From positions 43,886 through 107,885 of the forward strand of contig JAULBX010010103.1 of NCBI GenBank assembly GCA_032358255.1: 64,000 bases of DNA, given 5' to 3'. The notes beneath the pieces are model-generated. The model saw nothing but the letters and a program-made list of their open reading frames with translations. It was not told the DNA's origin and searched no databases. This document shows, in pieces, positions 427-64,000 of the stretch. Position 1 is the stretch's first letter. Each line of letters begins with the position of its first letter. The position numbers and the translations under genes are program-made. The stretch is from Heterotrichella gracilis. Taxonomy: Eukaryota > Sar > Xanthophyceae > Tribonematales > Xanthonemataceae.

Positions 427-475
427 TCTTCCAGCGGTCCCACTGCAGGTCCCTCGCCCGGCAGTGCACCCCCAT

Positions 476-1003
476 ATTTTGGTCAAGCGCAGCCTGAGTG
501 CCCCTCTTGGGCTGCCCCCAGCTCCACCCAAGCAGCATATGATGCGCTGCACCCAGGTAGGAATAGCATAAATCTTACTTGCCCATTTAAGTGACATTGC
601 CTATTTAAATATGCCATTTGAACATTTTGGCACGGCACAACCCCAATGCCCCTCTTGGGCTGCCCCCAGCTCCACCCAAGCAGCATATGATGCGCTGCAC
701 CCAGGTAGGAATAGCATAAATCTTACTTGCCCATTTAAGTGACATTGCCTATTTAAATATGCCATTTGAACATTTTGGCACGGCACAACCCCAATGCCCC
801 TCCTGGGCTGCCCCCAGCTCCACCCAAGCAGCATATGATGCGCTGCACCCAGGTAGGAATATCATTAATCTTACTTGCCCATTTAAGTGACATTGCCTAA
901 TTAAATATGCCATTTGAACATTTTGGCACGGCACAGCCCCAATGCCCCTCCTGGGCTGCCCCCAGCTCCACCCAAGCAGCGTATGATGCGCTGCACCCAG
1001 GTA
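476..1003 (+). repeat. 148-bp tandem repeat carrying a duplicated exon (four copies, last partial)
   Basis: The unit starts at 'attttgg' at 476, 624, 772 and 920, an exact 148-bp spacing. Each unit ends its coding part at 'ctgcacccag|gtagg', a good donor. The exon-like part reads as a short segment rich in Ala, Pro and Ser and ending ALHP. Copy 1 (cgcag) and copy 4 (cacag) keep an AG before the coding part. Copies 2 and 3 have cacaa at the same place. Copy 1 may instead be the 3' part of a longer exon, 427-556, preceded by a pyrimidine-rich acceptor. Which copies are spliced into the mRNA cannot be settled from DNA. Confidence 0.75.
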
Positions 1004-1112
1004 GGTAGGGAGCTATGTGCCGTGTTGGTTTTATTGGAGACTCCTTTCTTTTGCACCACGTGCTGCGCAACGTATTTGCTCGGGTTATGTTAACAATTGC
1101 ATGCATTCACAG

Positions 1113-1220
1113 GCTGCTGGATTTGCTGTCAGTCCTGTTTGGCATGCGCATCCAGCCCTCTCAGCATTGGCTCTACCAAGTGACCAGCAACGTTAGCGTT
1201 GACGTTAGTAATGCTGTCAG
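1113..1220 (+). CDS. Candidate 5' exon of the proline-rich/SGNH gene
   Basis: A pyrimidine-poor but usable acceptor (cacag, ending 1112) opens a reading frame that continues to a donor (cag|gtgaca, 1221). The segment encodes LLDLLSVLFGMRI followed by QPSQHWLYQV. An alternative acceptor at 1131 (tgtcag) joins better in phase to the 148-bp-repeat exon. The phase to the next exon at 1313 does not close cleanly. This is therefore only a candidate exon, or one with an unrecognised boundary. The protein domain was not recognised. Confidence 0.35.
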
Positions 1221-1312: not shown

Positions 1313-4300
1313 GCTATGTATCCACTGTCCAATCATGGGTGGGCAGGACGGTAGTCAACCAGCCAGCATCATCAGATAACGGCACTACCCCAGAGGTCGA
1401 GGCACAATCAGGCATCCGAGGAGGGCAGCAATCCGATCCAAATGTGAATTCCAGCGGCAGGCGGTTGAGGCAGCACAATTTGGACCCCATCATTGCAGGG
1501 AGGGGGCTGGATCCGAATGTGGATGTCAGCGGCAGGCAGTTGCGGCAGGATGATTTGGACCTAATGGCAGTGGGGGTGGATTCAAATGTGCATTCAAGCG
1601 GGGATTCAGCTGGGAGCTCAAATGCCAATTCAATGGGGACCTCAAATGGCAGGCGGCTGAGTCAGTACACCTCAGTCCCCATCACAGGGAATTCTGGCAC
1701 GCAATCTCATGGTAATGGTTACAACCAGCCGCCACTGCCCCCGCTCTCCTATAACCTCACAGCGGTGCTCCTTGCGTTGGCGCCCTACTACCCCAGCCCC
1801 CCCCTACAGCTCCCCCCACCACCCACCACACCCGCGGTGCCCCCACCGGTGCAGCTCCCAGTGTCCCCGCCGCCACCCCCTCCCCCCTTCTACCCCCCAC
1901 CGGTGGCGGTCCAGCCCCCACCAACCTCACCAGCAGCATCCCCACCGGTATCCCCACCCCCCTTCCCCCCACCACTGGCATTGCAGCCCCCACCAGCCAC
2001 ACCACCAGCCTCACCACCACCCCTCCCACCACCACCCCTCCCAGAATTGCAGCCCCTTGTGGAGTTGCAGCCACCACCAGTCACACCAGCACCCCCCCCA
2101 CCAGCCACCCCACCAGCCACACCACCAGTGTCACCTCCAACATCCCTCCCCCCACAAGCCACCCCCATCGCCCCCCCCACCCTTCAACAATCCACCCCCG
2201 CACCAGCACCAGCACCGGCACCAGCCAGTACCCCCACCTCCACCACAGCCCCCCCATCCTACTCGCTACAGCCCACTCCCTCACTGGCTACTGGCCCGAC
2301 AGGCAGTGGAGTGGTTCCTGCAGGTATGGGGAACACGCCAGCAATGCATTGGTTGGGGATTGAATGAGGGAATCCTCCCGGCTATCCTGCTCTAACCCTT
2401 AACCCTTCACCTTAAACCCTAATCTAGCCTATCATGCTGACCTCTCTTCTGCTCTGTGCCCCCCCTCACCTACGCACTCATCACTCACTTAAACCCTAAA
2501 CCCTAAATCCTTATCCCTGAATTGGGCTGACTCAACCACGTCGGACAAGGCGTCATGATTGCATATACGTGCTCACTTTATTGTTTTTCCAGCAGGCAGT
2601 GGAGTGGGTGCCGCAGCCCCTGGGCAGGGTCCACACGACAAAGGGGGCGCAGATAACTCAAATGTGCAGGTGAGAGAGAAATGCTACCCAGGGCCCCATA
2701 TTCCCTAGACCCTGGGATTGGATCTGTCTATGCTTGTGGAATTGGGATGCTGGGGTACACACGAAATAATGACAAACTTGCATGCACTCTGATCCATCTG
2801 GGATAAATGCGCGCACATGTGAACCTGCAAATTTGTTTATGCTCTTATTATGCTCCGGAAAATGCTCCATCATTTTGAAATTCTTCTGAACCGTGGTGCA
2901 CTTGTTCCAGGGATTGGATGTGGTGTTCCTCGGGGATTCCATATTCGAGGCCTACCGATCCACTTTCTTTGGCAAGCCTGTGGACAACTACTACGGCTCG
3001 TGGATCATTGGTGCTGACAAGGTGTTCCAGGCATGCTTTGGGTCCCAAGTGGGGGTAAACGCGGAGGCGTTTGGGATTGCAGGTGCGCAAAAACCCTGAG
3101 AAAATGCTGTCTTTGCACAGGGATATTGCACGGGGCTTCAGAGTTACAGCCAGATTAGCATGCTGTAGGTTGTTGTGCTAGCCTTGCGATTTTTTTCTTT
3201 AGATGATTGTTGCCGACAAGGTGTTCCAGGCATGCTGTGGGTCCCAAGTGGGGGTAAATGGAGAGGCCTTTGGGATTGCAGGTGCGCAAAACCCTACACA
3301 CAAGTCTGCGCACTGAGCAGTATATAGTAGTAGAATGCGCGTACAGTGACAACCTTGGCCCAGTGCATGGATTGCCCTGCATGTGGGCTGCAGTGTGATA
3401 AAGCGGGGGGCATTGCAAGCATGCCTGTCATATGTGCTCCTATAGGTCGTTTCTGCCTGAACCCAAACCCTAAAACCTAGGTCAATTCTGCCTAATTGCT
3501 GACCCCTAAGGCCGTTGGCTACCTCCCCCACTCAATAAAGTAATGGAACCCGCCCTCCTTGCCCCATGTACATATGCACAAGACATGATGGTAATAAAGT
3601 CATGTGGCTCAATTGTTGCCCAATTGCTGCTGAATCGGTGCCCAACTGTTACTTAATCGCTGCTCAAATATTGCTCAGAGCAGTTGTTTGCTAATGCGTC
3701 ATCAACTCATCCATATTGATACGAAACACAGAAACATCATTCCTTGCACCCCGCACTGGACAAGACGTTTGGTCTAGAGTGACGCATGGTGCAACAGGAT
3801 GTACGTTCCATACTTCAATGAAAGGAAATAACACCTAAATAAACAGGTAAACTCACAATGATTCCTTGCACCCCGCAGCCGACAAGAGCTTTGGCGTGGA
3901 GTGGCGCATATGCTATGGCGAGCTTGACCCGCGGCTGCGCCTCAAGGCGGTGGTGCTGCTGGTTGGCACTAACGACCTGCTGGCACAGGACGAGGCGGTA
4001 AGTTTGAAACAAGACCAGGGCACAAAGTGGGAAAACGAAGTTCAATTTTCCAGGCTTTTCACTTTTTTTTGGCTCTGGAGTGGCACTTGTGCAATGGATA
4101 GTTGGATCCCTGCCTGCGCCTCAAGGCGGTGGTGCTGCTCATTGGCACAAACGACCTGCTGCCACAGGATGAGGCGGTAAGCGCGTGTACAAACCCTATA
4201 CAATATGGAATAAATCGACAAAGTATGTACACAAACCCCCATTTTTAAGGTTGCACACTGCCCAATACCCATGGCCAACGGGTATGAACGCATGCCATGC

Positions 4301-7300
4301 ATGTATGAAAGGATGTCACGTGCATGGTGCGTTGCGGCAACGCTGGACTGCATGTACTTACATAATGTACACTTACTTATTGGCAATAAGTAAGGTGGTT
4401 TTGTGAGTACATGCACGTTCAGTTCAGCTTTGCCGCAAGGCAACATGCACATGGCGATACATGAAACCGTTTCGTACATACCCGCAATGCATGTCATGCG
4501 CATGCTGCCTCGCCGACAGCAGGGTCACTCATTGGGGTTTAGGGTTTAGGGCACTCATGCCCCACCACTTAGAATGCCCAAAAATCTAAAGCCTAAGCAG
4601 GCTCACTCCCAGGCTCTAGACCGGCTGAGGTATCCCAACATCTACAGCCCATCCCACCCCCTGGGTTCCATCAATCTGACCATATCCTGTCCATTCCATC
4701 CCCTGAGACACATCCTCTCCCCTTTTTCCCGCAGCTTGAGCCCACCCCTGGCTACTTCCCCCAGAACATCTCCAGCCGCATAGCCACCATGGCAGCAGAC
4801 GCACAGGTGCTCAGTGGAGGCGCGCAGGTAGGGTTTTTAGGATTTAGGGTCTAGGGTTTGGGAGTCTGACCTATAATGAGGGAGGTTAACCTTAAGTTGA
4901 AGATGCCCAGGTGCTCAGCAGAGGCGCTCAGGTAGGGTTGAGGGCTTCTTATTTCTGTATTTGGGAATTTGGTTTAGGTTTGGGTTGTTGTTTGTTAATT
5001 TTGGGATTTAGGGGAGATTAGAGCTTGGAGACGCCCAGGTGCTCCCCGGAGGCGTGCAGGTAGGGATTGAGACTGAGGGTGTAGGGTTTTTGGCATGCCG
5101 TATTAGGTGAGCGGGCGGCGGGCACCGGCGGTGGTTGCCTAAAGAGACCCCGTACGGCACGCCCCCCCTCTCTCCCCGCGGAGCAGGTTTTGTATTTTGG
5201 GGTGTAGGGGAGGCGAGAAGTTGAAGGTGACCAGGTATTTGGGGGAGGCGCGCAGGTAGGGGTTTATTGTTCAGGGTTTAGGGCTTTGGTTGTTTGTGCG
5301 AGGTTGGATATGAAGTTGAATCGCCAGGCGATGCACGCACCCCAGGGCTACCTATAGCTTTTGAGATACAGGGGTCAGGGCTTATGGTGTTTGTCATTAA
5401 ATCACGATTGTGGGAGGTTGGAAATGGATATGATGTGTGGTTCTCAGGGCTGCTGGTAGGTTTTTTGCCATCTGTTGCTTTTAGTGCTGGCTGCTTGCCA
5501 TAGATATGCCAAGCAGGCAGCGTTTGAGCAATAGGTAGCCAATATGAGAAACAATACAAAACAGGTGGCCAAAACATTAGGTAACTAAAACCAATACGCA
5601 AATGACATTGCGCCCACCTTGCTCAACCCTTGCACAGAGGCCCAAAAATAAAGCCAGTGCATCTCAGGGCTACCTGTCGTTTTGCCGCTGGCTGGCTGCT
5701 TGCTGTGGATGACTTAGTGCCTCTCCGTTCCCACTTCCAATATATGCCTCATTGGTGTTGCTGCAACTGGTGGCTGTGATGCCCAACCACCCACGTGGCT
5801 GCACCAATGAAGCAGACTGCAAGGCGGGTGTGGAGGAGCAGTCGGCCATGTGCGGCAAGCCACCAGCCAGCGCCAAAACAGCAGGTAGCCAGGAGTTGGG
5901 TAGCCAAATGGGTTGCCAAAGAGTGAGGTAGTCAGAAGCTGGAGATGCGTAGGTGCTCAAGGGAGGCGTGCAGGCAGGGTGAAGTGTGCAGGACTGAGGG
6001 GTTTTGTACTCTATGTGATGTCAGAGGGGCTACCTGTTGTTTTGGCGTTGCCTGCCTGCCATGGATGTCCCATTGTACCTCGCCATAATTGCTTTGAACG
6101 TCATTGGTGTTGCGTCGTTGGTGGCTTGGATGCCCAGCGCTGTGCACCTATGATGCCACCTGCAAGGCAATTTTGACGAGGTATACCTTGGGACATCCAT
6201 GGCGAGGAGGCCGCGGCAAAGCAATAGCTTTGACCTAGGTAGCAAAACCCATTAGGTAGCCAAAAGAATGGTCAGCAAAGTCAAAGAGTCACTACCTAAT
6301 GGGTTTGGCTTTAGGTCACAGGTCCTAGGTCAAAGTCCTAGATCAAAGTGTTGCTACCTAGGTCAACCCTCAACACAGATGACCACAGGTATAGCAAGCA
6401 TAATTTACTTACAGAATTGTTGAAGGGGCATGCATTCACCAACGTGAGCTTTCCCTGGGCTTGGTTGCCATGGCATTTATTTCCCCAGACAAGTTGACAT
6501 AAAAATGAAATGTTGATAACTTTTTGCACAGAGTGAGTTGGTACGCGTTGTTGCATTCAACTAGTTACTTTTGCCTCTCTCAATGTGCTTGCAAAACCTT
6601 AGTTGCTATAACGCATGTCTTGGGCACATATTGGTCCAAAAGTGCCACGTCACAGCTGACGTGGCACCCAGTTACCGGGCCTCAGGGGGGTGGGGAAATG
6701 AAATGCCATGTGGGGTGACCCCACTCGGTCACGGAAGGCCCTACATGGATCACCCATCACCCACCACTTACCATCCAATCACCACAACCCACCCAGGTGT
6801 TTGTGGTGGGGTTGCTGCCACGTGGCGACCCTGGAGGTCAATGCGTATTTTTGCCCAATTATGTATTATTATGCGTAACATTATCACCTGTCGACGTAAT
6901 GACTATTGCAACCGCCACTAGGTGTTTGTGGTGGGGCTGCTGCCTCTTGGGGACCCTTCCACATCCAGCAACAACCTGGAGAAATCACCGTACATGGGGC
7001 GCCTGAGCAATGGCAATACACCTGTCAAGAAATTTTATGCCATTCAACAATCTGGGCACAACCATCTGCCTAGTTCTTCTCGTTGATATGTACCAGCCAA
7101 TTTCATGCAACCACTTACCACTTATTATCCATCCCCAGGTGTTTGTTGTGGGGCTGCTGCCACGCGGAGATCCTGCAACCTCCGGCAACAACCTAGAAAA
7201 ATCACCCTACATGGGGCGCCTGAGCGACGTGAATGCCAACCTCCAAGCCAATGCCACCCAAGGGGGGTACACATACATCGACTGCGGGGAGCGGTTTGTG

Positions 7301-16443: not shown

Positions 16444-20546
<4,103 letters not shown>

Positions 20547-54700: not shown

Positions 54701-57700
54701 GTGGTTTGAGGAAACCCTGGTTGCTGGGTTTGGAAGTTATTCCGGAAAACAGTGAACTTTGGGGTGTGGTTGGCAAAAGTCTGCCACCACTTCTCCTGGT
54801 TACTGGTTTTCCAGGGCTGTCCTCAAAAATGGCGAGCAGGGTCTGCCTTCCCCTTGCAGGCTTTGCATGGCTTGGGAGGGAGAAAGAGCATTGCGTAGTA
54901 CTAAACGCTGGGCGGCCACCTCAATACTGGCCTCAGCGGGTTTGCCTGCGGGTGGGGGGTGAGGTGGCCGGCATGAATATGTTCTCTGCAATGCCCTTTC
55001 AGCATTCCAAGCTGGATGAACCGAGGTCGTGTTTTAGTCCCTGGATGGCTTTCTACTTTGTCCTAGTCCACATGTTGAGAAGCCTGCAATGTCAAACCCT
55101 AGGTTCACACCCCAAAACCCTACATTGTAAATGCGCCACCGGCCACCGTTGCCCCCGCTGTGCAGGGGTTTAGCAACCTCGGTGGCGCCTAGAACCCTAC
55201 ACCCCACAACCCCGAACCACTAAAACCCTAAATGCCCTATGTGTCCACCCATCCAGTTGTACCAGCGCAGCCGATGGCATGCATATGAGGATGGTTGCTG
55301 GCAGGTGCAGCGCCAAGGTGGTGTATGACGTGGGCTGAAACCCTAAACCCTTAACCGTTAACCCTAAACCCTAAACGTGCTTCTATTGCATATCGTATTT
55401 ATAACCCATTCCCCCGTTCTCCAGGTGTTCTGCCAGCTGAGCCGCGCGGATGACATGAAGATGGTGGCTGGCAGGTGCAGCGCCAAGGTGGTGTATGATG
55501 TGGGGTTCACTAGGGAGGGAAAGGTGACGGCGCTCAAAGTCAGGGCTTGGCTCCTGGGGGGTGCTTTCATGGACATCAACATGTTTGAGGCCTCCGAGAC
55601 CGCTTCCTTCATTGAATCGGTGCGTGGTTCTCCCGGTTTTAATAACAGTGTATCTTCACAATCTAAAACTGTGAAGTACCATGGCAAATGCAATGAACGA
55701 TGTAAAGGAGAGGGGGGTTAATAGTCCTCAAAGTCAGGGCCTGGCTCCTGAGGTTAGGGTTCACGAAGGAGGGTTAGGGTGGTGGCGCTCAAAGTCGGGG
55801 CCTGGGTGCTTGGGGGGGGCATACATGGGCATCATCATGTTCGAGGCCTCCGAGACTGCTTCCATCATTGAATCGGTGCGTGGCTCTCCCGATCATAATC
55901 ACAGTTTATCGTCACAATAAAAAAGTATGACCTATTATGGCGATTGCATTTAAAAATGTGAAGGAGAGGGGGCAACTGTTCGCAAGGCTGCTGGGGGGGT
56001 TAAGAGGGGGGGGGGGGGCTTTCAGGGACATCGATTGAAGCCTCAAAGGCTGCTTCCTTCATTGATTCGGTGCATGCCACTTATGCCCCTTGCAATTGGG
56101 ATCACGGCGCATTCTGTAATGCATGGCCATGTGACTTCGTTGGAGAGTACAATGGAGCTTGCGAGGCTACTCAGCACAAAGCACCAGGCTGATTGAGGGA
56201 AGAGGAGCTCCGGCCAGGACCCTGGCGCGCCATCGGCCACGGCCGGTTGCTCTTTCCTCTCAGCAGCCTTGTGCTTGGTGTTGGGTATCTTCACAAGCTC
56301 CACAGTACTCCTCATCAAAGCTACATGGCCACGTGACTGTGCCACCCATGCCCGATTTGCACCAGCCGCCCAGCAACACAGCGGTCTCCATGTATGTTTA
56401 TTTTAAAATATAAAAAATATTGCCAAGAAGACAGGTCTGCCACAGGGCGAATTTACAAATTTATAATATTAAAATATATTATATTTTTTATATTTTCAAA
56501 TTCGCCCTGTGGCAGAGCTGTCTTCCTGGCTCCTGGGGGGTTACAATACTCACAGCCTGGGAAGTTCCTAGATTGTATAATCACAAACGTTTCCAGCTGG
56601 TGTTGGCGGCAGGCACCGCTGTCTTCATTGGTGTGGTGGGCACATCTTGGAAGTCCAGTGCCAAGTGGGGTCCATTTGCACCCCGTCCCACTCCATGTGC
56701 ACACTTCCCCCTGTGTATCTACCCACTCACCCGCCCCCAACCTCTGGTCTCCTGTCAATATACTGAGCATGTATGTCCCCACTTCTACTCCACCCACACA
56801 ATGTATGCCCCCTGCTTAACCAATCCCTCCCCTTTCCTTTAGGTGCGTTGTATCCCCGATGAGAATCTGTTAAATTTAGGGGTTTAGGGGTTACTTCAAA
56901 CCCCTTTACAGCAAGGAGTGCAAAGGCCAACATCTCCCTCCCCACACCACCACGAGGGCCCGGGGCCAATTCGCAATTGTGGCAATAAATAGTTACATTC
57001 TGGCCACCCTCCTGTTCCACGGGACTTCCGCCCATGCATTTTACCTCCCCAATTAATTGCCTTTTGTCCAGTGTCCATCTTTTCTTCAGGGATACTGCTC
57101 CCCCAATGCTTCAGTGGATGTCAAGCTGTGCAAAGCCAACATCCCCCCCCACACCACCATGAGGGCCCCGGGCCAATTTACGGGGGGCGACAGACATTTT
57201 GCACATTTTGGCCCTCTTTGGTTTCACTCCAACCCTACAATTTTTAAATGCTCGTACTAATCTGTTTTTCTGCCCCTTCCTTGTTTAGGGATACTGCTTC
57301 ACAGATGCATCTGTGGATGTCAAGCTGTGCAAGGCCAATATCCCCCCCCATACCACCATGAGGGCCCCGGGCCAATTCACGGGGGCGGCAATAATTGAGC
57401 ACATTTTGGAGCACGTGGCCTCGTATTTGGGCACCGATGGCGCCTCGGTGCGCGAGCAAAACTGGATGCGCAAGGTCACCGGTAAGGTTTTTAGGGTTTC
57501 CGGGTAGGGTAGTTTGACAGGGTGGGATTTTGTAGAAAAGGGTGTCATGTGGGGTGTCGTGTGTGGTATGTGCTTCATGTGTTCATGGGGGTTTTAATTC
57601 TCGGGGGTGGCAATAATTGAGCCATTTTGAAGCATGTGGCGTGGTATTTGGGCAACGACGGGGCGTTGGTGCCCGAGCAAAGCTAGATGTGCAAGGTCAC

Positions 57701-60700
57701 CGGTAAGGGTATTAGGGCTTTGGGTACGGTTCATTGGTTGGTTTGTAGGGATGGGAAAGGGTGTCTTGTCGGGTGTGTGCTTCCATTTGGGCTAATAAGG
57801 GCACTAATCTACGGGGGTTGCAATATTTGAGCACATCTTGGAGAACGTGGCGTCGCATTTGTGTGCCGCCGCAACTGGATACGCAAGGTCACCTGTGAGG
57901 GTTGAGGGTTTTCTGGTACAGGGTTTAGGGTACGGCTGGGTGCATAAGGGGATTTTAGGGACTGGAAGATGGTGCCGGCATGGGTGGGTGGGTTAAATGG
58001 GACTTCTTCATGCCATTGGGGGTGCAACAGTGGGACACATTTTGCGGCAGATTGCATCATTTCTGCGCACAGATGGCGGGAGGCCATCGGTGTGCAGATG
58101 TGAAGCAACTTGCTCCAAAATGTGCCCCAATGTTGCCACCCCCAATGGCGTGGATTAAGCCCCATTTATGGCAAGGGTGTAGGGTTTCTTTCGCATCTCC
58201 CAGGACTGTGTACAAGGGGGTTGTGCTATCACGCATGTGAGGGAGAGGAGAACACACCTGCTAGTCCTATCTCACAATTACCATATCAACTATGCACACA
58301 TCAACCATGCACACTTGAGCCAGGCCGTGCCTCTGTGTAAATGGCACTCAAATCACAAGTGCAGTGCATTGTTGCCGTACACAAAGAGCCAGCCGTGGCA
58401 TGGTTTTGAACAGCCTACGCGCCCGCCCTTGGACTGCTTGCGCATCTGGTAAATTATAAACCCTAAATCCTAAACCCTGAACGCTATGCATGGGTGCGTA
58501 CCACCGCTGTGCTAAACCCTAAATCCTATGTGCATGTACAAAACCCTATGCATGCCCTTGGACTGCTTGCACGTGTGGTAAACCCTACATCCTAAACTGT
58601 CCATGGACCACTTGCGCATTTGGTCAAGGCCACCATGGGTTGCCTGAAGAGTGGGGTGTTGTGTGCGTGCGCACTGATACACCTTGCACCTCCAGAATGG
58701 CTTTATCCCTGCTAGCACACAATGTCCTCTTGAGGATGGCGCGCGGTGTGTGCAGGCGGGGTGCACCCATACTTGAGGTACAAGCAGTGTCAGTGCGCCC
58801 GCACTCAATGCCCCTTTCCAGGTGACCATGGTGGCCTTGGTCACATGCCCAAGGAGTGCATGGATGTAGCCATTGGACCATGGGCCCTGGCTTTGGCTGC
58901 CACGTGTCACTGGATGGTGTGATACCACGCAGGTGATGCAGGGGAGGTCACCTTCGAGGGGCCCTTGACCACAACCCCTCACGATGAGTACCGTAGATGT
59001 GGACCATTTTGGGCCAATATGAAAACATATTATGCCTCCCTCCTGGCCAGATGATCGATGCCTGAGGGACTCCATTGCCACCTCTCACAAGGGGTTTGTG
59101 ATATATTATGCAGGTGACGGAGGGAAGGTCAGCTTCGAGGCACCATTGACCAAGTCCTCTTGCAGTGAGGAGATGTGGACCATGCAGCGCATCTGGGACC
59201 AAATCAAGGTGGGCTTAAGGTTTAGAATTTAGGGCTGTTTAGGGTGATAAATACATATACGATAAAAGGCATAACTGGCAATAGATATCCTTTAGACTCA
59301 CCGTGGGAAGGCTGTATTGGGGTGAGATTTCAACAATTAACCTCGGCCCTTTAAACCCCCCCCATGCAGGAGGATTCCCAGTACGAGCAGCGCCTGCGCA
59401 AGGTGCACCAGTTCAACGCCAGCAACGCCTGGGTCAAGCGGGGCCTGGCGATGTGCCCCTCCCGCTACCGGTGCATGGTGTGGGCCAAGCCGGGCATGGT
59501 GTCCATCTACGCGGATGGGTCGGTGCTGCTGGTGGCCTCGGGGACTGAGATGGGGCAGGGCCTGCACACCAAGGTCATACAGGTGCGGGGTGGCCGTTTG
59601 TAAGACCTAGACCCTGTTATGCAATGTAGATTCATCAACCAGGTGTGGCATGAATGAATCGGTGGTTCACCTCAATCAGAGCAATTCACACCCCACACCC
59701 TGATGCTGCAGTTAAAAACCCGAAACCCCACCACAACCGTTCACAACCCCAAACCCTAATGCCACTGCCCACCCCCCTCTGCCAGGTGGCAGCGCTGGAG
59801 CTGTCCAAGGTGCTGCCAGCTGGCGCACCACCCATACCCCTGGGATTGCTGCGCATTGCTGAGGGATCCACGGAGCTGCTGCCACATGGCGGGATCACTG
59901 GGGGGAGCACAACCACCGAGGCGTGCTGCCAGGTGAGTTGGTGGTGGGTGTGGGTGTGGGTGTGGGGCAATGGTGGGGTAGAATTATTTGAAGAAGGGGG
60001 GAGGGAGGCAACTGATCGAAACCTATTACATCCCTGATTTTCACTTCTGTTCGGGTCAATGACCCCTGAACACCCCCTGCGCTTAACTGTTTCCGCCCCT
60101 TCCTTTCCCAGGCCATCAAGCAGGCGTGCCAGGAGCTGGTTGGGAAGCTGCAGCCAGGTGCCGAGGAGCTGGGAGAGGGCGCCACCTGGCAGGGGGTGGT
60201 GGGCAAGATGTTCAGGATGAGGGGGGGACTGGGGGCTGCAAAGGTGAGGGTGGTGGGGCAATGAGGTGGTGGGGTTGCATCTTGACAGGAATGGTGCCGT
60301 GCGTACCCCACCCTGCACTGCTTGGCCATGTTTCTCCTTTTTATATTTTGCCCCTTTGGCCCAGAGACCCTCTCTAGAGTATCAAATGTCTGACGTTTGC
60401 CTGTGTTGCTGCAGTCCCACCTGACTGCTGTGGCCAGCTATGGGGGCACAGAGATAGGCCCTTGATACCGGGGCCCTTTAATGGGCTGTAAATGTCTGAC
60501 ATCTCCCCATTACTGCAGTCCCACCTGACTGCTGTGGCTAGCTATGGGGGCACAGAGATAGGCCCCAATGATGCCCCCCTGCCCACCCCCCTGCGCTACA
60601 ACCTCTTTGGCGCGGCCTGCACAGAGGTTGAAATCAGTGTGCTCACAGGTGCGCGTGCGCCATTGCATACTTGCATGTATATCAGCAGTACATAAAGGCC

Positions 60701-63700
60701 TGCAATCAGTCCTGCCAATTGCGGTGGTACTGTTTAGGGTTTAGGGTTTAGGGTTTAGGGTTTACTGCTACTTTCTCAGAGTAGCGGTCAGCGTGTACAG
60801 GGGTCTAATGTTGCCCTCGTGCCACCCCCCTGTTGAAGAATTATGGTGCCGCATGCACAGAGGCTGAGATCGTTTTTTCTCACAGGTGCAGTTCTGGCTC
60901 CCGTTGGTAGCCCTTTGCCAATCCCAACTTCCAACACGTGGGTCGCAAAGTAGGGGTTGTGATTGATTCCGAGTGCTTGTGTGCAGGCGAGCGCCGCGTG
61001 CTGCGCACTGACATCCTGTTTGACTGCGGCATCAGCATGAACCCCGCGGTGGACATTGGCCAGGTGCGTGCCTGTGGCTATTAGATGTTTAGGGTTTAGT
61101 GTGGTTAGGGTTTGACTGCGGCATCAGCATGAACCCCGCTTGGACATAGACCAGATGCGTGCACTGGTGAGTACATCTGTAAGGCTCAGGGTTCAGGGTT
61201 TAGAATGGTTAGGGTTGTGAATGCAGCAGCTTGAATCATGCCGTGGACATAGGCGAGGTGGACGGTATGGCCATGATGTGAATACTCAGGGTGGAAGGTG
61301 GAGAGGGTGGAGGGTGGGACTAGATTGTATCATGGGTAAGGGTTTTTGCATTTGACTGCGACAGCAGCATGAACCCCGCAGTGGACCGAAGGCCAGGTGG
61401 GTGCCATGGTCATGAGATGACTCCCTAGGGTTTATGTTGGTGGTCGAGGGTGAGTGTTGGCTGCTACCACGGCACAGAGCTTGTGGCCACCTGGTCTGCT
61501 TTTTGCCGTGGTAGCATTCATCCCTCTCACTCCACCATCAACCGTCAACCCTGGGTGGTCATCTCAAGACCATACCACCTACCCGGTGGTATGCCAGCCA
61601 GGAGGGTTGCAGTTGACGGTACAGGAGTGATGCTGAGGGCTTAGAGTTTAGGGTTTAGGGTTTAGGGTTTAGGGTTCCTGTCGAAGCATACAAGAGCACA
61701 GCTTCACATAGCTGTTCAGCAAAGCTATTGCCCATGGTCAATTGGTTGATCGAGTGATACGAGGTGCAATGCATTCGAGGGGGAGCAAGTGGGGATTATA
61801 TCAGAGATGATATTAATGAGGTTACAGTAGATTCCAGTGGGTTACAGTGGGGGTGAAGGCTGTACTTTGAGTGGGCAACTCGCCTTCATTATTTCACTGC
61901 TATTTCTTCATATTTCTTCTACCATACATACATATTTCTTCTATTGGAGTTGAAAGAGACCCGGTGAAATTGTGCCCCCGCAGATTGAGGGCGCATTTGT
62001 GATGGGCATGGGGGCCATGCTGAGCGAGCAGGCCACTTTTGACCCTCAATCAGATTTGAGGGACAGCATCGGCACGTGGACCTACAAAATCCCGGGGGTG
62101 ATGTGTATCCCCAGGGAGATGAACATCAGCATGATCATGCTCCTCAAGGGGTGTGTGGAGATGGTGGTGGTGCGGGGAGGTGGGGTTTGTTTCAGGGTTT
62201 AGAGAGCAAAGTTGTAGGCCACATTTGACCCCTCCACCGGTCTGAGGGACAACATCGGCATATGGATCTACAACATCGAAAGGTGAGCAGCCGCGCATCT
62301 CAACGTGAGGGTCGCCATACATGCAAATGGGGGTAATGCACCCTTACCTAGGATATTGGCCTCTGGCGAGTACCAAATCAGCCAGCAAGTCGGCTGACAC
62401 TGCCTTCCTGAGGATGTTGATGTCGACCCCTGCCAACAGACAAGAATGGCTTCGTTCTTGCCCTGGATTAGGGTTTAGGGTTGGCAAGGTGTCGATGTCA
62501 CAGTCTTCAGGAGGAGCAGTGTCAGCTGATTGTTGGGTGATGAGGTATGTGGTTGGGGCGGTACGGGGGGTGTGAATGGGCATTGTTTGGAGGGGGAGAT
62601 GCGGGTGGTGGTGGTTTGTGTTAGGGTTCAGAGAGCAAAGTTGTTCAAAGGAAGGCCACGTTTGACCCTCGGTCAGACTGGACAGACAGCATCGGCATGT
62701 GGATGTACAACATCCCCTGGGAGGTGAACGCCGCGCTGTTCAAGGTGAGGGTTGCCATAAATGCGGGGAGAAGTATGTACCCTTGCCTAGGGTATTGGCC
62801 TCTGGCTCTCTCAAGCGGGCACCGAATCACCCAACTGGTCGGCTGACACTACCTTCCGGAGGATGTCGATGTCGACACCTGCCAACCTGAGCATGTCTTT
62901 CTTGCTTGTTGGCAAGGTGTCGATGTTGAAGTCCTCGGGAAGGCACTATCAGTTGACCTGTTGGGTAATTTGGTATGTGGTTGGGAACAATTGGTGGCAC
63001 CCAGTGCACTTGATAGGCACAGAGGGAAGCCCCAGAGTCTCCATGCCAGTAGCAATAGGAGGGGACACATTGCGTGGGAAGGAGCCTTCAACCGACAGGG
63101 CTGGCAAACATTAAGTCATTCGGTTTAGAAAGCTATAAAATTCTAAATTTATTTTTTAATTTTAATTTTATTCTTGATAATTAACAATTTTGGCATCATA
63201 GACAGCAGCGAGCACCGGCTCACCCACTTCAACAAGGCCATATCCCGCCCACCCCCTGAAAATGCATCTCTACACGAATTTGCAAGCAGGCTTACATATC
63301 CTTTTTGTCGTGTCTGCTTACCTAATTTCCCACCCGCAGGACTCCCCAAACCGCGCTGGCATCATGAGCAGCAAGGCAGGGGGCGAGCCCCCACTGCTGC
63401 TATCCAAGTGTGCCCATGCTCCCTGCAACAGGCCATCAAAAGATCCCAAATATAGAAAAACTGTGCACGCCACTGGATGCACAATCCCCGCCCTGTTTGT
63501 ACTGTTTACTTGCCTTCCTTGCCACCCGCAGGACTCCCCCAACAGGGCTGGCATTACGGGGTAGTAAGGCAGTGGGCGAGCCCCCACTGCTCCTCTCCAC
63601 ATCAGTCGCATGCGCCCTGCAGCAGGCCATAAATCCGGGGTCCCCCCCTTGTAAAAACGCATCTCTACACAAAATCCATGCAGTATTAATAACCCTTTGT

Positions 63701-64000
63701 CATTTATGCCCACCTCTTTCGCCACCCGCAGGACTCCCCCAACAGGGCTGGCATCATGGGTAGCAAGGCAGTGGGTGAACCCCCGCTGCTCCTCTCCACA
63801 TCGGTCGCTTGCGCCCTGCAGCAGGCCATCAACTCCGCCCGAGCAGCCGCACCCCTCACTGTCGCCTCAGCCAATGGTGCCATGGCCAATGGCAAGGCGG
63901 GGGCCAAGGGTGGGGTGGTGGGTGGGGGGGTGTATGCGCCCCTCTTCCCCCCTGCCAAGGTGGGGAAGGTCAGGCAGCTGTGTGGGGCGGGGAGTGTGGC
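21774..64000 (+). CDS. AO: Plant-type molybdenum aldehyde oxidase (3' end beyond window)
   Basis: Oxidises aldehydes to acids with O2; uses two 2Fe-2S centres, FAD and molybdopterin. Exons: 21774-21866, 22213-22288, 24859-24978, 25524-25714, 31764-31880, 38353-38559, 39362-39627, 40209-40465, 40802-40998, 41388-41619, 42086-42294, 47367-47487, 47790-48044, 52366-52463, 55425-55619, 57289-57481, 59114-59208, 59370-59582, 59786-59932, 60112-60243, 60519-60648, 60987-61063, 61984-62148, 63732-64000. All phases close. Motifs: CNEGGCGAC; AGFHASQCGFCTPG; LCRCTGYRPIVDACK; DIEDLGLN; FAD site LVAGNTGSGVYK; AATLGGNLVLA; LLQASGEALY; GGGFGGKATR; MRAPGQ; EMGQGLHTK; FDCGISMNPAVDIGQIEGAF; TWTYKIPG; VGEPPLLL with the likely catalytic Glu. 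GNTGxG and MRAPG are oxidase-type, not xanthine-dehydrogenase-type (GNTE, RGFGG). Exon 23 has no canonical donor. About 1351 residues are seen, near full length. Substrate unknown. Confidence 0.94.
22430..22470 (+). pseudogene. Copy of the end of aldehyde oxidase exon 2
   Basis: 'ggaggtgtggaggcaagacc' followed by 'ccgtcacag|gtacacatgg' repeats the 3' end of exon 2 and its donor, about 172 bp downstream of the original. It lacks the Fe-S cysteine codons. Confidence 0.75.
22530..22690. repeat. Inverted-repeat hairpin, about 60-bp arms
   Basis: The left arm contains 'gcgaatactccccacaatgt' and the right arm contains 'acatggtggggagtattcac'. The centre holds 'gggatgcccaatgccattgg'. The right arm resembles the start of the same intron (gtacgacatgg ... 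ggtggggagg), so the hairpin probably arose from local inverted duplication of exon-2/intron-2 sequence. Confidence 0.75.
23341..24155. repeat. Tandem pair of ~380-bp foldback elements
   Basis: Element 1 is about 23341-23711 and element 2 about 23774-24155; they are diverged direct repeats of each other. Within each, the ends pair: 'gcgccaaatcaacaacatgc' at the left of element 2 with 'gcctgttgttgactctagcg' at its right. Inner parts pair too (gggtgacaaagcacttgaag with ttcaatgctttatcaccc). TTTAGGG repeats (23714-23740) separate the two. No coding capacity was seen. Confidence 0.75.
24483..24756 (+). pseudogene. Two decayed copies of aldehyde oxidase exon 3
   Basis: Copies at 24483-24560 and 24672-24755 precede the genuine exon (24859). 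They encode the CLAPAGS and GCHVYT parts with substitutions (LNSCLAPAGSMTSCHIYTP in the second). Both break off before the EGLGSSGTAF codons. The first is preceded by cctcacag. The copies are spaced about 188 bp apart, and the intact one is last. Confidence 0.8.
25088..25215. repeat. Small inverted-repeat hairpin in aldehyde oxidase intron 3
   Basis: 'atgccgcattgcagaaacac' pairs with 'tgtttctgcattgcggcata', with looser pairing outward to 'ctatgtatgt' and 'acatgtatac'. Arm length is about 40 bp, with a loop of about 40 bases. Confidence 0.7.
25323..25413 (+). pseudogene. Copy of the start of aldehyde oxidase exon 4 lacking the CGFC cluster
   Basis: This follows an acceptor-like tatcag and encodes RIAGFHASQCA, then, after a frameshifting deletion, material equivalent to ACHAAMQKAH. 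The codons of the second Fe-S motif (CGFC) are damaged, so use of this copy would inactivate the enzyme. Confidence 0.8.
26473..26560 (+). pseudogene. Copy of the end of aldehyde oxidase exon 4
   Basis: The segment from 'aaggacatgcaggcg' to 'gtggacgcatgcaag|gtggg' matches 25639-25720. The LCRCTG codons have changed to a form in which only one Cys can be read. The donor is intact. The same 'gcatgcaagg' end recurs at the edge of the hairpins further downstream. Confidence 0.7.
26700..27340 (-). other. Possible remnant of a transposon-derived coding region, minus strand
   Basis: The minus-strand frame from about 27294 to 26905 contains a Cys/His-containing string (KTKCLQFGLCIHCKRTTK) preceded by IFVRKPCFFTIPL. 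This loosely recalls the Cys-rich C-terminal tails of some transposases. The frame is short and interrupted, with no DDE residues identified. I list it as a hint only; it may be chance. Confidence 0.15.
27838..29790. repeat. Array of five related ~225-bp foldback hairpins in aldehyde oxidase intron 4
   Basis: Units at about 27838-28061, 28382-28613, 28784-29022, 29180-29402 and 29553-29782, with a weaker relative near 26150-26380. Each begins with CCAAACC plus 'gcatgc'-like bases and ends with the complement (gcaaggtttggcc). The middle holds 'tgcgaggctgactggggcaa' and an opposite strand 'cattgcccctgtcacac'. Arms are about 100-115 bp. Between units a second small palindrome recurs (gtttggcctg ... 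caggccaaac). The units are diverged, so the array is not recent. Confidence 0.75.
30223..30586. repeat. Foldback hairpin with ~100-bp arms
   Basis: 'ccagttgcagggcaaggtgt' with the following 'aggctattgcccactcggcc' pairs with 'gggtgctagcctacacgttg' and 'ccctgcaaacc' at the right end. The interior contains additional copies of a 'caaagctacat' motif in both orientations. A 146-codon forward open frame overlaps it but shows no domain. Confidence 0.7.
31179..31401. repeat. Foldback hairpin with ~85-bp arms
   Basis: 'ggtacctgccaagcaatggc' pairs with 'gccattacttggcaggcacc'. Internally, 'gcagcaacaatattgtgcac' pairs with 'gtgcacagtatggttgctgt'. The terminal loop is about 45 bases, around 'gatgcatgccatggc'. 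It lies about 360 bp before aldehyde oxidase exon 5. Confidence 0.75.
32275..33310. repeat. Four related ~125-bp foldback hairpins
   Basis: Units at 32275-32400, 32426-32548, 32827-32956 and 33180-33310. The arms start with 'atgcacacttggacaaggg'-like bases and end with the complement 'cattgttcaagtgtatacag'. The loop is 'gtcgtggctgggtatgttca'-like, flanked by gtttctgtc and gacagaaac. Spacer repeats of the type 'cggcccggggcactacctgt' alternate with the hairpins. Single stems of ~55 bp with a short loop resemble small-RNA precursors in shape. Expression is unknown. Confidence 0.8.
34130..35580. repeat. Duplicated composite block of three hairpins
   Basis: Block 1 holds hairpins at about 34140-34284, 34330-34390 and 34419-34572. 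Block 2 repeats the order at about 35125-35293, 35325-35385 and 35416-35578, offset about 990 bp. The middle hairpin of block 1 is almost loop-free: 'ccattgttcaagtatacata' is answered by 'tatgcctacttggacaatgg'. Its arm sequence is related to the arms of the 32-33 kb family. The outer stems include gttgttgcca and tggcaacaac pairs. Confidence 0.7.
36980..37690. repeat. ~264-bp tandem repeat, each unit itself partly self-complementary
   Basis: Units begin near 36995, 37258 and 37523 at 'gagagggtccc'-like bases. They share 'atggggagtgtggtgctgag' and 'atggtggtggca', then 'cacccagggcattcaagtga'. Within a unit, 'cactcaaacgccctagggtt' pairs loosely with the 'cccagggcattcaagt' part. Diverged relatives occur at about 36200-36610, 33700-33880 and 34780-35040. 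No coding signal was seen. Confidence 0.7.
38169..38240 (+). pseudogene. Copy of the start of aldehyde oxidase exon 6
   Basis: This follows a good acceptor (gtttccag) and encodes VHQSGGATWQHPITLRDLIA, in frame with the gene. It ends before the FAD-site codons and has no donor. The genuine copy begins at 38353. Confidence 0.8.
38648..38755 (+). pseudogene. Copy of the end of aldehyde oxidase exon 6 with donor
   Basis: This repeats 38460-38565 with few changes: NTGSGVYKDMWP, then VVVDLGRVADLKKIENKE, then gag|gtgagg. Its start is 'ggctaacacaggc', with no acceptor. The exon's 5' part is therefore copied upstream and its 3' part downstream of the intact exon. Confidence 0.8.
39098..39300 (+). pseudogene. 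Two copies of the start of aldehyde oxidase exon 7
   Basis: Copy 1 (39098-39155) follows an intact catcccag acceptor and encodes GGHIIGAGVTFTQLIDHL. Copy 2 (about 39178-39297) lacks the acceptor, has IIGAK followed by a TGA-containing frame, and extends to the PLAGMP codons. The genuine exon, at 39362, is the 3'-most. Confidence 0.8.
41298..41342 (+). pseudogene. Short copy of the start of aldehyde oxidase exon 10
   Basis: 'gcccagggtgaccccacact' followed by 'cctgcgcctgctgg' matches 41392-41425. It lies about 94 bp upstream, without a good acceptor. Confidence 0.65.
41700..41770 (+). pseudogene. Copy of the end of aldehyde oxidase exon 10 with donor
   Basis: 'gagggggcgctgtacggggc' followed by 'tctggtgttgtctacag|gtgg' matches 41583-41624 and keeps the donor. 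The intervening G/T-rich stretch also contains a shorter echo (cgctgctgtccacacgtggg). Confidence 0.75.
42533..43694. repeat. Two or three related ~240-280-bp foldback hairpins
   Basis: Clear units are 42533-42771 and 43418-43694; a looser relative is 42969-43233. Left arms carry 'caatgggtgttgggaggtcc' and right arms end in 'gacctggacctcccagcagc'-like bases followed by cattg. An inner pair is formed by 'gagtccatatgtccacaacg' and the following 'cgttgtagacacgtggactc'. Arms are over 100 bp. They lie in aldehyde oxidase intron 11. Confidence 0.75.
44570..44715. repeat. Short ~40-bp tandem repeat (gggtggttca)
   Basis: Four units start with 'ttgggtggttca' or a close variant (about 44569, 44609, 44654 and 44690). 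Each is followed by a pyrimidine-rich 'ccttccagg/cgccttcag'-like string. No coding meaning was seen. Confidence 0.65.
45840..46925. repeat. Three to four ~300-bp repeats with self-complementary ends
   Basis: The clear units are about 46125-46340, 46425-46640 and 46695-46925, with a more diverged one at 45840-46090. The left edge has 'aatccccatttccttggaga' and the right edge the complement 'aagcctaggagatggggatt'. The middle carries 'cttctgcgcagctgtcgcct'. The interval 46561-46630 is almost identical to 46261-46340. Confidence 0.75.
46339..46362. repeat. Homopolymer (G)24
   Basis: An uninterrupted run of 24 G at a unit edge of the 46-kb repeats. A second run of about 10 G is at 46639-46648, at the equivalent place of the next unit. 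The exact length may be uncertain because homopolymers are hard to sequence. Confidence 0.85.
49330..49552. repeat. Foldback hairpin with ~95-bp arms
   Basis: 'cacgatgttgaccatggggt' at the left pairs with 'acgccatggtcgatatggtg' at the right. Further in, 'tattgcacagcatggtactt' faces 'gtgctatgcggtacagtaac'. The loop is around the 'gtgtctgaaacatg' region. It lies in aldehyde oxidase intron 13. Confidence 0.7.
49960..51110. repeat. Array of about five foldback hairpins, ~200 bp each
   Basis: Units lie at about 49965-50165, 50195-50320, 50400-50560, 50605-50765 and 50790-50935, with a further one to about 51100. Left arms read 'agggcgagggttaccctccg', then gccatagcactctgccagg. The centre is 'gaggtgcacaaccgcagtgg'. 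Right arms give the complement (gagtgctatgcc ... accctcgccctcttcctgct). The first unit carries an expanded (TGCTATGCCA/TGCCATGCCA)n run at 50066-50122 in its right arm. Confidence 0.75.
51738..51890. repeat. Foldback hairpin built on telomere-like sequence
   Basis: 'ctaccctgaaccctaatgtg' with 'tagggtagtcggttcgatg' pairs with 'catcgcaccaactacctaca' and 'cattagggtttagg'. The arms are ~70 bp and the loop is only a few bases. Both edges consist of CCCTAA/TTAGGG bases. Confidence 0.75.
52560..53715 (+). repeat. Six decayed tandem copies of the GGFGGK (molybdopterin-loop) exon
   Basis: After the genuine exon 14 (52366-52463), copies start near 52571, 52755, 53030, 53201, 53390 and 53637. Each has a 'gtggttttggcgggaaggcc' core or a shortened form, then 'ggtggcggtgggggcagc', gcagcaac and a gagcag|gtggg-like donor. 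None begins with an acceptor. Each is preceded by 'ccctaaa(g/a)cg/gtgtgg'. In several copies the GGK codons are deleted. The spacing is 170-275 bp. Confidence 0.85.
54250..54880. repeat. Three tandem ~200-bp foldback hairpins
   Basis: Units at about 54250-54435, 54466-54660 and 54685-54880. The left arm has 'aaggaaaccctgctcgctaa'-like bases and 'gaagtcagtccggaaaccag'. The right arm has 'gagcagggtctgctttcccc', then ttgcaggctttgcatgg. The interior has 'gttggcaaatgtctgccacc'. The three copies are diverged but collinear. Confidence 0.75.
55255..55345 (+). pseudogene. Copy of the start of aldehyde oxidase exon 15
   Basis: 'gttgtaccagcgcagccgat' and then 'atgaggatggttgctggcag' matches 55428-55510, encoding a damaged FCQLSRADDMKMVAG. 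It ends at 'gtgggctgaaaccctaaacc', with telomere-like bases at the break. Confidence 0.75.
55720..56075 (+). pseudogene. Two decayed copies of the end of aldehyde oxidase exon 15
   Basis: The first (about 55723-55895) contains 'gtggcgctcaaagtcggggc' and the codons for MFEASETAS.IIES, with the donor tcg|gtgcgtgg. It even repeats the start of the intron. The second (about 55980-56075) is shorter and carries a poly-G run. The frames are broken in both. Confidence 0.8.
56119..56350. repeat. Foldback hairpin with ~100-bp arms
   Basis: 'gcatggccatgtgacttcgt' pairs with 'ctacatggccacgtgactgt'. 'acaatggagcttgcgaggct' pairs with 'gtatcttcacaagctccaca', and 'aagcaccaggctgattgagg' with 'ctcagcagccttgtgcttgg'. 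The central loop is near 'gccaggaccctggc'. It lies in aldehyde oxidase intron 15. Confidence 0.8.
56423..56529. repeat. High-identity inverted repeat with AT-rich loop
   Basis: 'gacaggtctgccacagggcg' followed by aattt pairs with aaatt and 'cgccctgtggcagagctgtc'. The ~35-bp arms are nearly perfect. The ~40-base interior is almost only A and T. The sequence composition differs from the surroundings, and it could be a small MITE-like insertion. No target-site duplication could be assigned. Confidence 0.75.
56915..57195 (+). pseudogene. Two copies of the MRAPG exon (exon 16) upstream of the genuine one
   Basis: Copy 1 (about 56915-56985) encodes KANISLPTPP..RARG-like residues with frame changes. 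Copy 2 (57090-57192) follows an intact cttcag acceptor and encodes GYCSPNASVDVKLCKANIPP, then MRAPGQFTGG. It loses similarity before the AIIEHIL codons and has no donor. The genuine exon is 57289-57481. Confidence 0.8.
57595..57900 (+). pseudogene. Two copies of the end of exon 16 with donor
   Basis: The first (57597-57706) resembles GGAIIE.ILKHVAWYLGNDGALV, then caccg|gtaagg, with a stop at the equivalent of NWM. The second (57812-57895) is more diverged and ends in cacct|gtgagg. Both keep donor-like ends and lack acceptors. Confidence 0.75.
57990..58165. repeat. Hairpin whose arms are a sense and an antisense copy of exon 16
   Basis: Left arm (about 58014-58080) and right arm (about 58087-58155) pair over ~65 bp, e.g. 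'gccattgggggtgcaacagt' with its opposite 'cattgttgccacccccaatg'-like bases. Read on the minus strand, the right arm aligns without gaps to 54 bases of exon 16 (the AIIEHILEHVASYLGTDG codons). Both share GCACATTTTGGAGCA and CACCGATGG; about 42 of 54 positions match by hand count. The left arm is a sense relative of the same segment. The hairpin thus arose by inverted duplication of coding sequence from this gene. Confidence 0.75.
58646..58822. repeat. Foldback hairpin with ~55-bp arms
   Basis: 'ggtgttgtgtgcgtgcgcac' at the left faces 'gtgcgcccgcactcaatgcc' at the right. 'accttgcacctccagaatgg' faces 'acttgaggtacaagcagtgt'. The interior contains 'ctagcacacaatgtcctctt'. It lies in aldehyde oxidase intron 16. 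Confidence 0.65.
58920..58990 (+). pseudogene. Copy of the start of aldehyde oxidase exon 17
   Basis: It follows an acceptor-like ccacgcag and reads 'gtgatgcaggggaggtcacc' then ttcgag, equivalent to GDAGEVTFEGPLT. It then diverges where the genuine exon (59114) has SCSEEMW. It lies about 180 bp upstream of the exon. Confidence 0.75.
60407..60470 (+). pseudogene. Copy of the start of aldehyde oxidase exon 21
   Basis: This follows gctgcag and encodes SHLTAVASYGGTEIGP before a TGA. It is 98% like 60519-60566 by eye. The genuine exon is the downstream copy. Confidence 0.85.
60720..60765. repeat. TTTAGGG telomere-type array
   Basis: Four perfect TTTAGGG units plus partial ones, in the 5' part of aldehyde oxidase intron 21. 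Similar perfect arrays occur at 23714-23740 and 61647-61675. They are interstitial, with coding exons on both sides, so this is not a chromosome end. Confidence 0.9.
60800..60900 (+). pseudogene. Copy of the end of aldehyde oxidase exon 21
   Basis: 'gccacccccctgttgaagaa' and then 'ttatggtgccgcatgcacag' through ctcacag|gtgc resembles 60580-60655. The LRYNLFGAACTEVEI codons are damaged, and the donor is kept. Confidence 0.7.
61105..61405 (+). pseudogene. Three decayed copies of the end of exon 22
   Basis: Copies lie at 61108-61158 (FDCGISMNPAWT, donor agatg), about 61215-61262 and 61352-61402 (FDCDSSMNPAVD.RP). Each is followed by sequence that also echoes the start of intron 22. Donor GT is retained only in part. 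Confidence 0.75.
61455..61640. repeat. Two adjacent short inverted repeats
   Basis: A perfect 13-bp stem (tgctaccacggca / tgccgtggtagca) spans about 61469-61516. A second stem spans 61527-61630: 'cactccaccatcaaccgtca' with 'tgacggtacaggagtg'. Confidence 0.7.
62180..62750 (+). pseudogene. Two decayed copies of aldehyde oxidase exon 23
   Basis: Copy 1 (about 62215-62290) reads ATFDPSTGLRDNIGIWIYNIE, then gtgagc. Copy 2 (about 62650-62742) reads ATFDPRSDWTDSIGMWMYNI, then PWEVNAALFK and a canonical donor aag|gtgagg. Both lack the IEGAFVMGMG codons and an acceptor. The genuine exon 23 has lost a normal donor, while copy 2 has one. Confidence 0.75.
62375..62972. repeat. Pair of related ~160-bp hairpins
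   Basis: Hairpin 1 pairs 62375-62437 with 62480-62543: 'gctgacactgccttcctgag' against 'ggaggagcagtgtcagctga'. Hairpin 2 pairs 62825-62886 with 62908-62970: 'gctgacactaccttccggag' against 'tcgggaaggcactatcagtt'. Loops are ~42 and ~21 bases. Exon-23 copies alternate with them, so exon copy and hairpin were duplicated together. Confidence 0.8.
63335..63640 (+). pseudogene. Two decayed copies of the catalytic-Glu exon (exon 24)
   Basis: Copy 1 (63340-63440) and copy 2 (63532-63640) both follow cacccgcag acceptors. Copy 1 encodes DSPNRAGIMSSKAGGEPP and then shifts frame after LLLSK. Copy 2 shifts frame or stops at GIT/GV... The intact exon begins at 63732. The spacing is about 195 bp, and the intact copy is the 3'-most. 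Confidence 0.85.

Follow-up and report, generated by a model that had tools for sequence, protein, structure and literature searches.

Partial copies of exons lie beside most of the exons that we mapped in a 64-kb stretch of genomic DNA (referred to here as the window), and they often sit at a step of about 188 bp. Same-strand copies within 1.5 kb, scoring above 20 random placements and above reverse-complement flanks, were detected for 30 of the 37 mapped exons, as an earlier note on this DNA had claimed for most exons of its four genes. Rank alone would give about two such exons (37/21), and reverse-complemented flanks scored above the best random placement in two of 37. This pattern is best read as the trace of a recurrent mutational process and not as a gene system.

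Genes of the window and copies of their exons

The window carries four genes, all on the + strand, in which we mapped 37 exons by hand using homology and splice consensus; further exons exist in the window. Gene identities come from tblastn with bacterial XdhA, XdhB and RsmH, from the Protein Data Bank and from Pfam, all three contributing to the xanthine dehydrogenase/aldehyde oxidase (XDH) gene. The RsmH gene was identified with E. coli RsmH in tblastn and by a Methyltransf_5 match on R_5, and the kinase by a Pkinase match on K_4 (E 2e-21). The putative GDSL-like hydrolase is the weakest identification of the four: Lipase_GDSL_2 matched the four joined S exons (E 5e-8), and S_a by itself had no Pfam match. 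At least one edge is approximate, arbitrary or non-canonical in K_1, K_3, K_5, R_2, S_z, X_1, X_8, X_9, X_10, X_13, X_19 and X_20. Since exon edges were set by hand, a few of the edge labels in Table 1, those of X_8, X_13 and X_20 foremost, rest on the mapping. A search of the window with Rfam gave nothing at gathering thresholds. Upstream of the GDSL-like exons, positions 1800-2300 hold a proline-rich, low-complexity and putatively coding open reading frame. A stretch of 12.6 kb within the XDH-like gene (25715-38352) has no recognised exon and contains nested larger tandem repeats (28407-29777, 32063-33325, 34113-35783 and 36958-37680).

Table 1. Genes, mapped exons and exon copies in the window, all on the + strand. 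Exon part is given in exon bases or as the edge copied.
Feature	Coordinates	Exon part	Lag (bp)	Identity (%)	Remarks
Putative SGNH/GDSL-hydrolase-like gene	2911..7819				4 mapped exons, others unmapped
S_a, S_b, S_c, S_z	2911-3082, 3879-3997, 4735-4827, 7697-7819				S_z end approximate
Ser/Thr protein kinase gene	11594..14434				6 mapped exons
K_1 to K_3	11594-11717, 12220-12319, 12806-12959				K_1 start, K_3 end approximate
K_4 to K_6	13342-13572, 13777-13892, 14209-14434
RsmH (MraW) rRNA methyltransferase gene	16830..20546				7 mapped exons
R_2 to R_5	16830-16892, 17347-17465, 17704-17791, 18207-18382
R_6 to R_8	18736-18883, 19489-19744, 20479-20546
Xanthine dehydrogenase/aldehyde oxidase gene	21774..63836				20 mapped exons; may continue further
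X_1 (first) and X_20 (last)	21774-21866, 63732-63836
S_a downstream	3120..3281	10-172 (3' edge)	200	70	strong part from base 93
S_b downstream	4068..4176	12-119 (3' edge)	178	83
S_c downstream	4899..4931	3' edge	104	82
S_c downstream	5027..5059	3' edge	232	82
S_c downstream	5929..5973	3' edge	1148	72
S_z upstream (three, in 7406..7648)	7406-7486, 7489-7544, 7593-7648	5' edge	292, 208, 104		also found by TRF
K_1 downstream	11782..11875	30-124	159	88
K_2 downstream	12417..12505	12-100	186	94	pre-junction sequence ends GGGTTTAGG
K_3 upstream	12730..12765	5' edge	77	81
K_3 downstream	13011..13109	29-133	177	65
K_6 upstream	14018..14139	16-149	206	72
R_4 upstream	17585..17626	1-42	119	90	similarity stops at exon edge
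R_5 upstream	18022..18080	5' edge	186	82	post-junction sequence begins AAACCCTA
R_5 downstream	18455..18601	40-175	209	69
R_6 downstream	19007..19106	47-148	225	75
R_7 upstream	19296..19425	2-131	194	95	post-junction sequence CCCTAAACCCC
R_7 downstream	19842..19928	163-256	191	76
R_7 downstream	19979..20102	122-246	369	64
R_8, past stop codon	20670..20715	4-49	188	80
R_8, past stop codon	20777..20812	33-68	266	78
X_2 downstream	22421..22460	3' edge	172	85
X_3 upstream (two)	24485-24554, 24671-24748	5' edge	375, 188
X_4 upstream	25323..25410	1-88	201	87
X_4 downstream	26417..26554	49-191	845	64
X_5 upstream (two)	37967-38050, 38169-38262	5' edge	387, 184
X_5 downstream	38645..38746	106-207	187	94
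X_6 upstream (two)	39098-39169, 39182-39299	5' edge	264, 183
X_6 downstream	39683..39833	124-266	198	68
X_7 upstream	39894..39999	58-162 (internal)	372	63	weak
X_7	40600-40645	192-237	200		overlaps X_8 copy
X_8 upstream	40585-40670		323		weak
X_9 downstream	41652..41756	74-171	130	67
X_11 downstream	48222..48350	internal	326	62
X_12 downstream (six, in 52565..53705)	52565-52652, 52761-52838, 53046-53093, 53200-53279, 53381-53460, 53657-53705
X_13 upstream	55256..55336	3-82	171	83
X_13 downstream (two)	55699-55870, 56011-56064	3' part	250, 455		exon end set arbitrarily
X_14 upstream (two)	56912-57016, 57090-57211		409, 199
X_14 downstream (four)	57596-57702, 57722-57893, 58014-58127, 58806-58952				last two weak
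X_15 upstream	58740..58941		644	59	weak; overlaps weakest X_14 copy
X_17 upstream	60415..60469	1-57	104	91
X_17 downstream	60762..60885	8-130	236	66	(GTTTAGG)n just before
X_18 downstream (two)	61110-61154, 61351-61396	3' edge	92, 332
X_19 downstream (two)	62214-62277, 62615-62726	internal	186, 619
X_20 upstream (two)	63340-63439, 63532-63636		392, 200

We list 62 copies at the 30 exons, 24 upstream and 38 downstream, with identities from 58 to 95%. The earlier note had counted about 40; the near-identical case it had placed at 19280-19421 is confirmed as 19296-19425 against 19490-19619, 95% identical. X_12 (52367-53705, six downstream copies) and X_14 (two upstream, four downstream) are the most copied mapped exons. 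The self-comparison that the note had proposed gave 152 direct BLAST matches, against none in a Markov-shuffled window. Inverted matches numbered 92, and among those of at least 40 bp, 43 were near-palindromic, within 50 bp. Under other scoring and with overlapping palindromes removed, there were 102 direct and 15 inverted matches within 1 kb.

Local same-strand copies were also detected in 49 of 111 non-exon segments, which, like the non-exon pairs considered below, may contain unmapped exons or copies of copies. The exon specificity implied by the earlier note is not upheld by this result; exons partly stand out because selection keeps one copy. A young tandem array at 476-1005 has 3.4 copies of a 148-bp unit with 98% matches, and by eye an exon-like edge with a donor closes each unit.

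A scan of a genome-contig collection with one kinase exon gave seven loci. One of these (L007), with a kinase match 69% identical over 32 residues, looks by eye like DNA of a small, intron-poor green alga contaminating a bacterial bin. This match and the dense plant-type telomere words of the window make a green-lineage origin probable. L007 has 0.74 local exact runs per kb, compared with 4.39 in the window. The raw run rate by itself does not discriminate, because the rate in two other bacterial loci is 3.27 and 3.63 per kb. Unlike the raw rate, the concentration of runs at 165-214 bp does set the window apart: 78 of 281 runs, as opposed to 10 of 158 across ten fetched loci. Using one RsmH and one XDH exon as queries against viral contigs, we obtained 26 and 17 pattern matches, none of which was confirmed.

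Edge geometry and the 188-bp step

Copies usually take one edge of the exon, as the earlier note had noticed, and the edge depends on the side. Upstream copies carry the 5' edge in 17 of 24 cases (two span the mapped exon, two carry the 3' edge and three are internal) and downstream copies the 3' edge in 28 of 38 (two spanning, one 5' edge, seven internal), some exon ends being arbitrary in these counts. Only four of the 62 copies span the whole mapped exon. This is the geometry expected if duplication is head to tail, with a breakpoint inside an exon that has to remain complete. The intact exon lies upstream of all its copies in 13 of 30 cases, downstream in seven and between copies in ten; therefore the rule that the complete copy is often the 3'-most fails.

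No copy among the 62 abuts a neighbouring mapped exon (within 10 bp), the minimum distance being 101 bp. Abutment is the signature of Rogers/AGGT intron gain, in which a duplicated exon donates AG and GT. The suggestion that the process builds introns is therefore retained for lengthening and not for the creation of new introns.

Breakpoints within exons are nearer the exon centre than uniform placement would give (mean offset 21.5 vs 35.7 bp, P 0.0003, for 27 of 29 breakpoints with lags of 150-240); put another way, roughly half a unit separates them from the splice site. Centring of the units on splice sites, examined post hoc on 32 of 40 exon sides, gave P between 0.0001 and 0.09 depending on the null, and up to 0.66 for spread alone; it is weaker with stricter detection and viability limits. 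In eight exons copied on both sides (K_3, R_5, R_7, X_5, X_6, X_13, X_14 and X_17), the upstream copy ends about where the downstream copy starts in exon coordinates (rms 32.5 bp, P 0.007, post hoc), as if one breakpoint had served both events. Neither splice-site centring nor breakpoint sharing carries weight in our reading, as both were noticed after the fact and the former loses strength when the null is tightened.

The distance between exon and copy is peaked. Among the 35 nearest copies per exon side that lie within 300 bp, 23 have lags of 165-214 bp, with a median of 188 and a standard deviation of 10 within that range. Exact runs of at least 11 bases number 78 at these lags and 15 and 19 in the 25-bp bins on either side, with less than one per bin in shuffles. 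A single 40-bp window (171-209) holds 24 of the 40 lags not exceeding 300 bp, a concentration with P 0.001 under fitted gamma and lognormal distributions (P 0.001-0.002 against smooth fits overall), and only eight of these 40 exceed 210 bp. Seven more copies lie at 369-409 bp, about twice the step. The earlier note had estimated units of 100-250 bp, in line with the 40 of 62 lags at 77-300 bp, and did not include the step or the telomere-like words described below.

Away from mapped exons and copies the 165-214 peak is absent from the exact runs (12 runs there, 66 around exons and copies), which speaks against a chromatin-wide step, since such a step would not predict the loss of the peak. Counted by event, 8 of 16 non-exon pairs with lags up to 330 bp, some of them possibly unmapped exons or copies of copies, are found at 178-231. 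Selection may eliminate short units but, by argument, explains no upper edge near 210 bp, so the length appears to be set by mechanism, at least near exons. Plant nucleosome repeats are near 185 bp, and the unit length may correspond to one nucleosome repeat.

Decay of the copies and telomere-like words

Younger copies, at least 75% identical, decay near-neutrally. In copies of at least 85% identity (n=21), 63 of 317 4-fold sites (20%) and 81 of 1086 codon positions 1 and 2 (7.5%) differ from the exon; in those of 75-85% (n=17) the counts are 67 of 205 (33%) and 95 of 704 (13.5%). The resulting ratios of 2.65:1 and 2.4:1 exceed the approximately 2:1 predicted for one neutral copy compared with one constrained exon, so that slight constraint or conversion may have acted on young copies. 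At identities under 75% the ratio is 1.25 (166/485 and 468/1714) and synonymous changes show no excess (220, with 215.7 expected at random), which this simple model would predict only with saturation or with chance or partial misalignment of the pairs. Young copies do have a synonymous excess (89 of 172 changes vs 50.6 at random), partly because the constrained exon gives some. Stop-creating changes number 22 over all 62 copies. Edge copies of at least 80% identity have GT at 13 of 15 donor and AG at 10 of 15 acceptor positions; below 80%, GT is kept at 7 of 15 and AG at one of two.

Intron parts of the younger units are 68% identical (background 57%), about twofold more diverged than the exon clock predicts. 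They exceed the 95% background level in 14 of 20 young, 9 of 14 middle and 5 of 12 old units, and six of the 20 young ones are indistinguishable from unrelated introns. Because intron parts are overly diverged, insertion of an exon edge, in place of duplication of a complete tandem unit, may have produced some of the units. Strong intron divergence was also considered as a disproof of neutral decay and rejected, the codon-position test and a simulation leaving a mismatch of about twofold only.

Telomere-like 6-mers (AAACCCT/AGGGTTT) are dense throughout the introns at about four to six times the shuffle frequency, with 702 C-rich and 637 G-rich words compared with 113 and 145 in shuffles. They follow a strand order: 115 G-rich and 41 C-rich within 150 bp after donors, and 115 C-rich and 3 G-rich within 100 bp before acceptors. 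These words may double as splicing signals. They are also enriched at duplication junctions. Among the 38 of 62 copies with a lag of at most 300 bp and a breakpoint inside the exon, 17 have such a word within 20 bp on the spacer side, while 5.7 are expected from distance-matched places beside other exons. Over the 20 bp of spacer next to the junction their density reaches 113 per kb, vs 23 in non-exon DNA. With 8 bp tolerance, 19 of 38 junctions and 16 of 38 outer unit boundaries carry a word (about 8 of 38 expected at random non-exon places); 11 units have words at both ends, eight at the junction only and five at the outer boundary only. Most tracts at junctions consist of one or two units.

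Telomere-like words mark the duplicated units, either as scars or as break sites. They could be scars of end repair, left where a few bases were added to a broken end, as opposed to fragile sites that were there before. For part of the words pre-existing break sites are favoured, because outer boundaries carry them too.

Possible origins and related systems

The explanation we prefer, to which we give an even chance, is recurrent duplication during break repair or replication, about one nucleosome repeat long and filtered by selection for one intact exon. A stretch, often of about 188 bp, would be duplicated head to tail, often with one breakpoint within the exon and the other in the adjoining intron, and only duplications that leave one complete exon would survive. 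For this reason an upstream unit would leave an acceptor-plus-exon-start fragment ahead of the intact exon and a downstream unit an exon-end-plus-donor fragment behind it. The extra fragment would be intronic and decay, and the intron would gain about 190 bp per event. Staggered nicks that are filled in ahead of joining could set the step, as could back-jumping or synthesis of Okazaki-fragment size during replication or repair. The continuing short tandem duplication and decay proposed in the earlier note is supported by the range of identities, the predicted edge geometry and the near-neutral younger copies. Our support for these ideas comes from the sequence of one 64-kb window and may be specific to it.

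A possible though less probable origin is break repair by local capture, in which a double-strand break in an intron is repaired with a copy of neighbouring sequence through synthesis-dependent strand annealing, so that an exon edge is inserted with filler and no strict head-to-tail tandem event occurs. Vertebrate repair-mediated duplications are described as short (up to 619 bp) and closely linked; they copy exons with splice sites, and their breakpoints show filler, deletion or microhomology (PMC2671141). Some young copies here (X_5, S_b and R_4) likewise have no detectable homology in their intron parts. However, free capture should yield both orientations and either edge, whereas direct matches predominate within 1 kb and upstream and downstream copies carry opposite edges; it also leaves the 188-bp step unpredicted. 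We consider it unlikely that ordinary broad-spectrum tandem duplication acts on all DNA, with exons special through selection only and the peak a small-sample accident. The copies in non-exon segments fit such a process, as does the slowing of divergence in exon pairs by selection, but the peak holds against smooth fits and in exact-run counts. By argument, viability should be about flat above approximately 200 bp, yet eight lags exceed 210 bp and 24 fall at 171-209.

Retention of the copies as alternative or decoy exons for splicing regulation is improbable. Young edge copies do keep GT and AG, and their synonymous excess, partly expected from the constrained exon, would fit a function; 58 of 62 copies do not span the mapped exon, however, splice dinucleotides fade below 80% identity, coding constraint is gone below 75% and stop-creating changes occur. 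Collapsed or misjoined haplotypes seem hardly credible as the source, since misassembly would yield near-identical copies and these are 5 to 42% diverged, contain indels and take an edge that depends on their side.

Our preferred duplication process could be extended to a standing mutational engine, a rather doubtful proposal, in which exon nucleosomes would set the breakpoints of 188-bp nucleosome-repeat duplications, telomeric words would be placed at the joint, and introns would grow stepwise from decayed splice-site neighbourhoods, the words then acting in splicing, as G-rich signals behind donors and C-rich signals ahead of acceptors.

The statement in the earlier note that no such pattern had been described is too strong. 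Short local duplications copying exons, splice sites and UTRs were reported in vertebrates by Pace et al. 2009 at lower density (PMC2671141), including 824 closely linked cases in the human genome, a count that leaves out pairs within 50 bp so as not to include tandem duplications; neither of two duplicated exons tested in that study had coding constraint. Our copies resemble these in being short and local and in including exons and splice sites, and differ in their number (62 at 37 exons), shared orientation, peaked step and telomere-like junction words. A potato case likewise has tandem duplication of exon/intron segments altering gene structure; its model is a new intron made from the duplicated segment (PMC4974935), whereas in our window the process lengthens introns already present. 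Yeast rad27/FEN1 mutants are described as making nucleosome-sized duplicated blocks (median 148 bp) whose breakpoints fall at nucleosome midpoints and at Okazaki termini, and simple tandem duplications are also said to increase in them (PMC13334657). The main product given in that account is an inverted triplication, unlike the direct copies that dominate here.

Telomeric tracts inserted at double-strand breaks in mammals have at least four units (PMC2246262). The tracts in our window are similarly at presumed repair sites, but are mostly of one or two units, occur at duplication junctions and throughout introns, and have a strand bias by intron end. Introners also add intronic sequence, in aquatic lineages and with a nucleosome-linker bias, as families dispersed over many genes (PMC9860276). 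The copies here are local and form no dispersed families within the window, where self-BLAST gave no direct match of at least 40 bp separated by more than 10 kb. We found no account of the combined pattern in the largely open-access literature searched. We find new the combination, the density and the peaked step, the nearest known parts being those described in PMC2671141, PMC13334657 and PMC2246262.

Because introns decay fast, the origin of their sequence is mostly invisible. Exons serve here as anchors that preserve the record of duplication events, and the sequence by itself then reveals their length, breakpoints and relative age. Should the 188-bp step prove genome-wide and equal the nucleosome repeat, intron growth would be tied to chromatin-guided DNA repair or lagging-strand synthesis, and new intron DNA and decoy splice sites would have a source open to test.

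Inverted local copies are rare compared with direct ones; examples are 57381-57469 with 58054-58143 and 34113-34342 with 35083-35307. One inverted copy repeats part of X_14; such copies recall the small inverted triplications described in PMC13334657.
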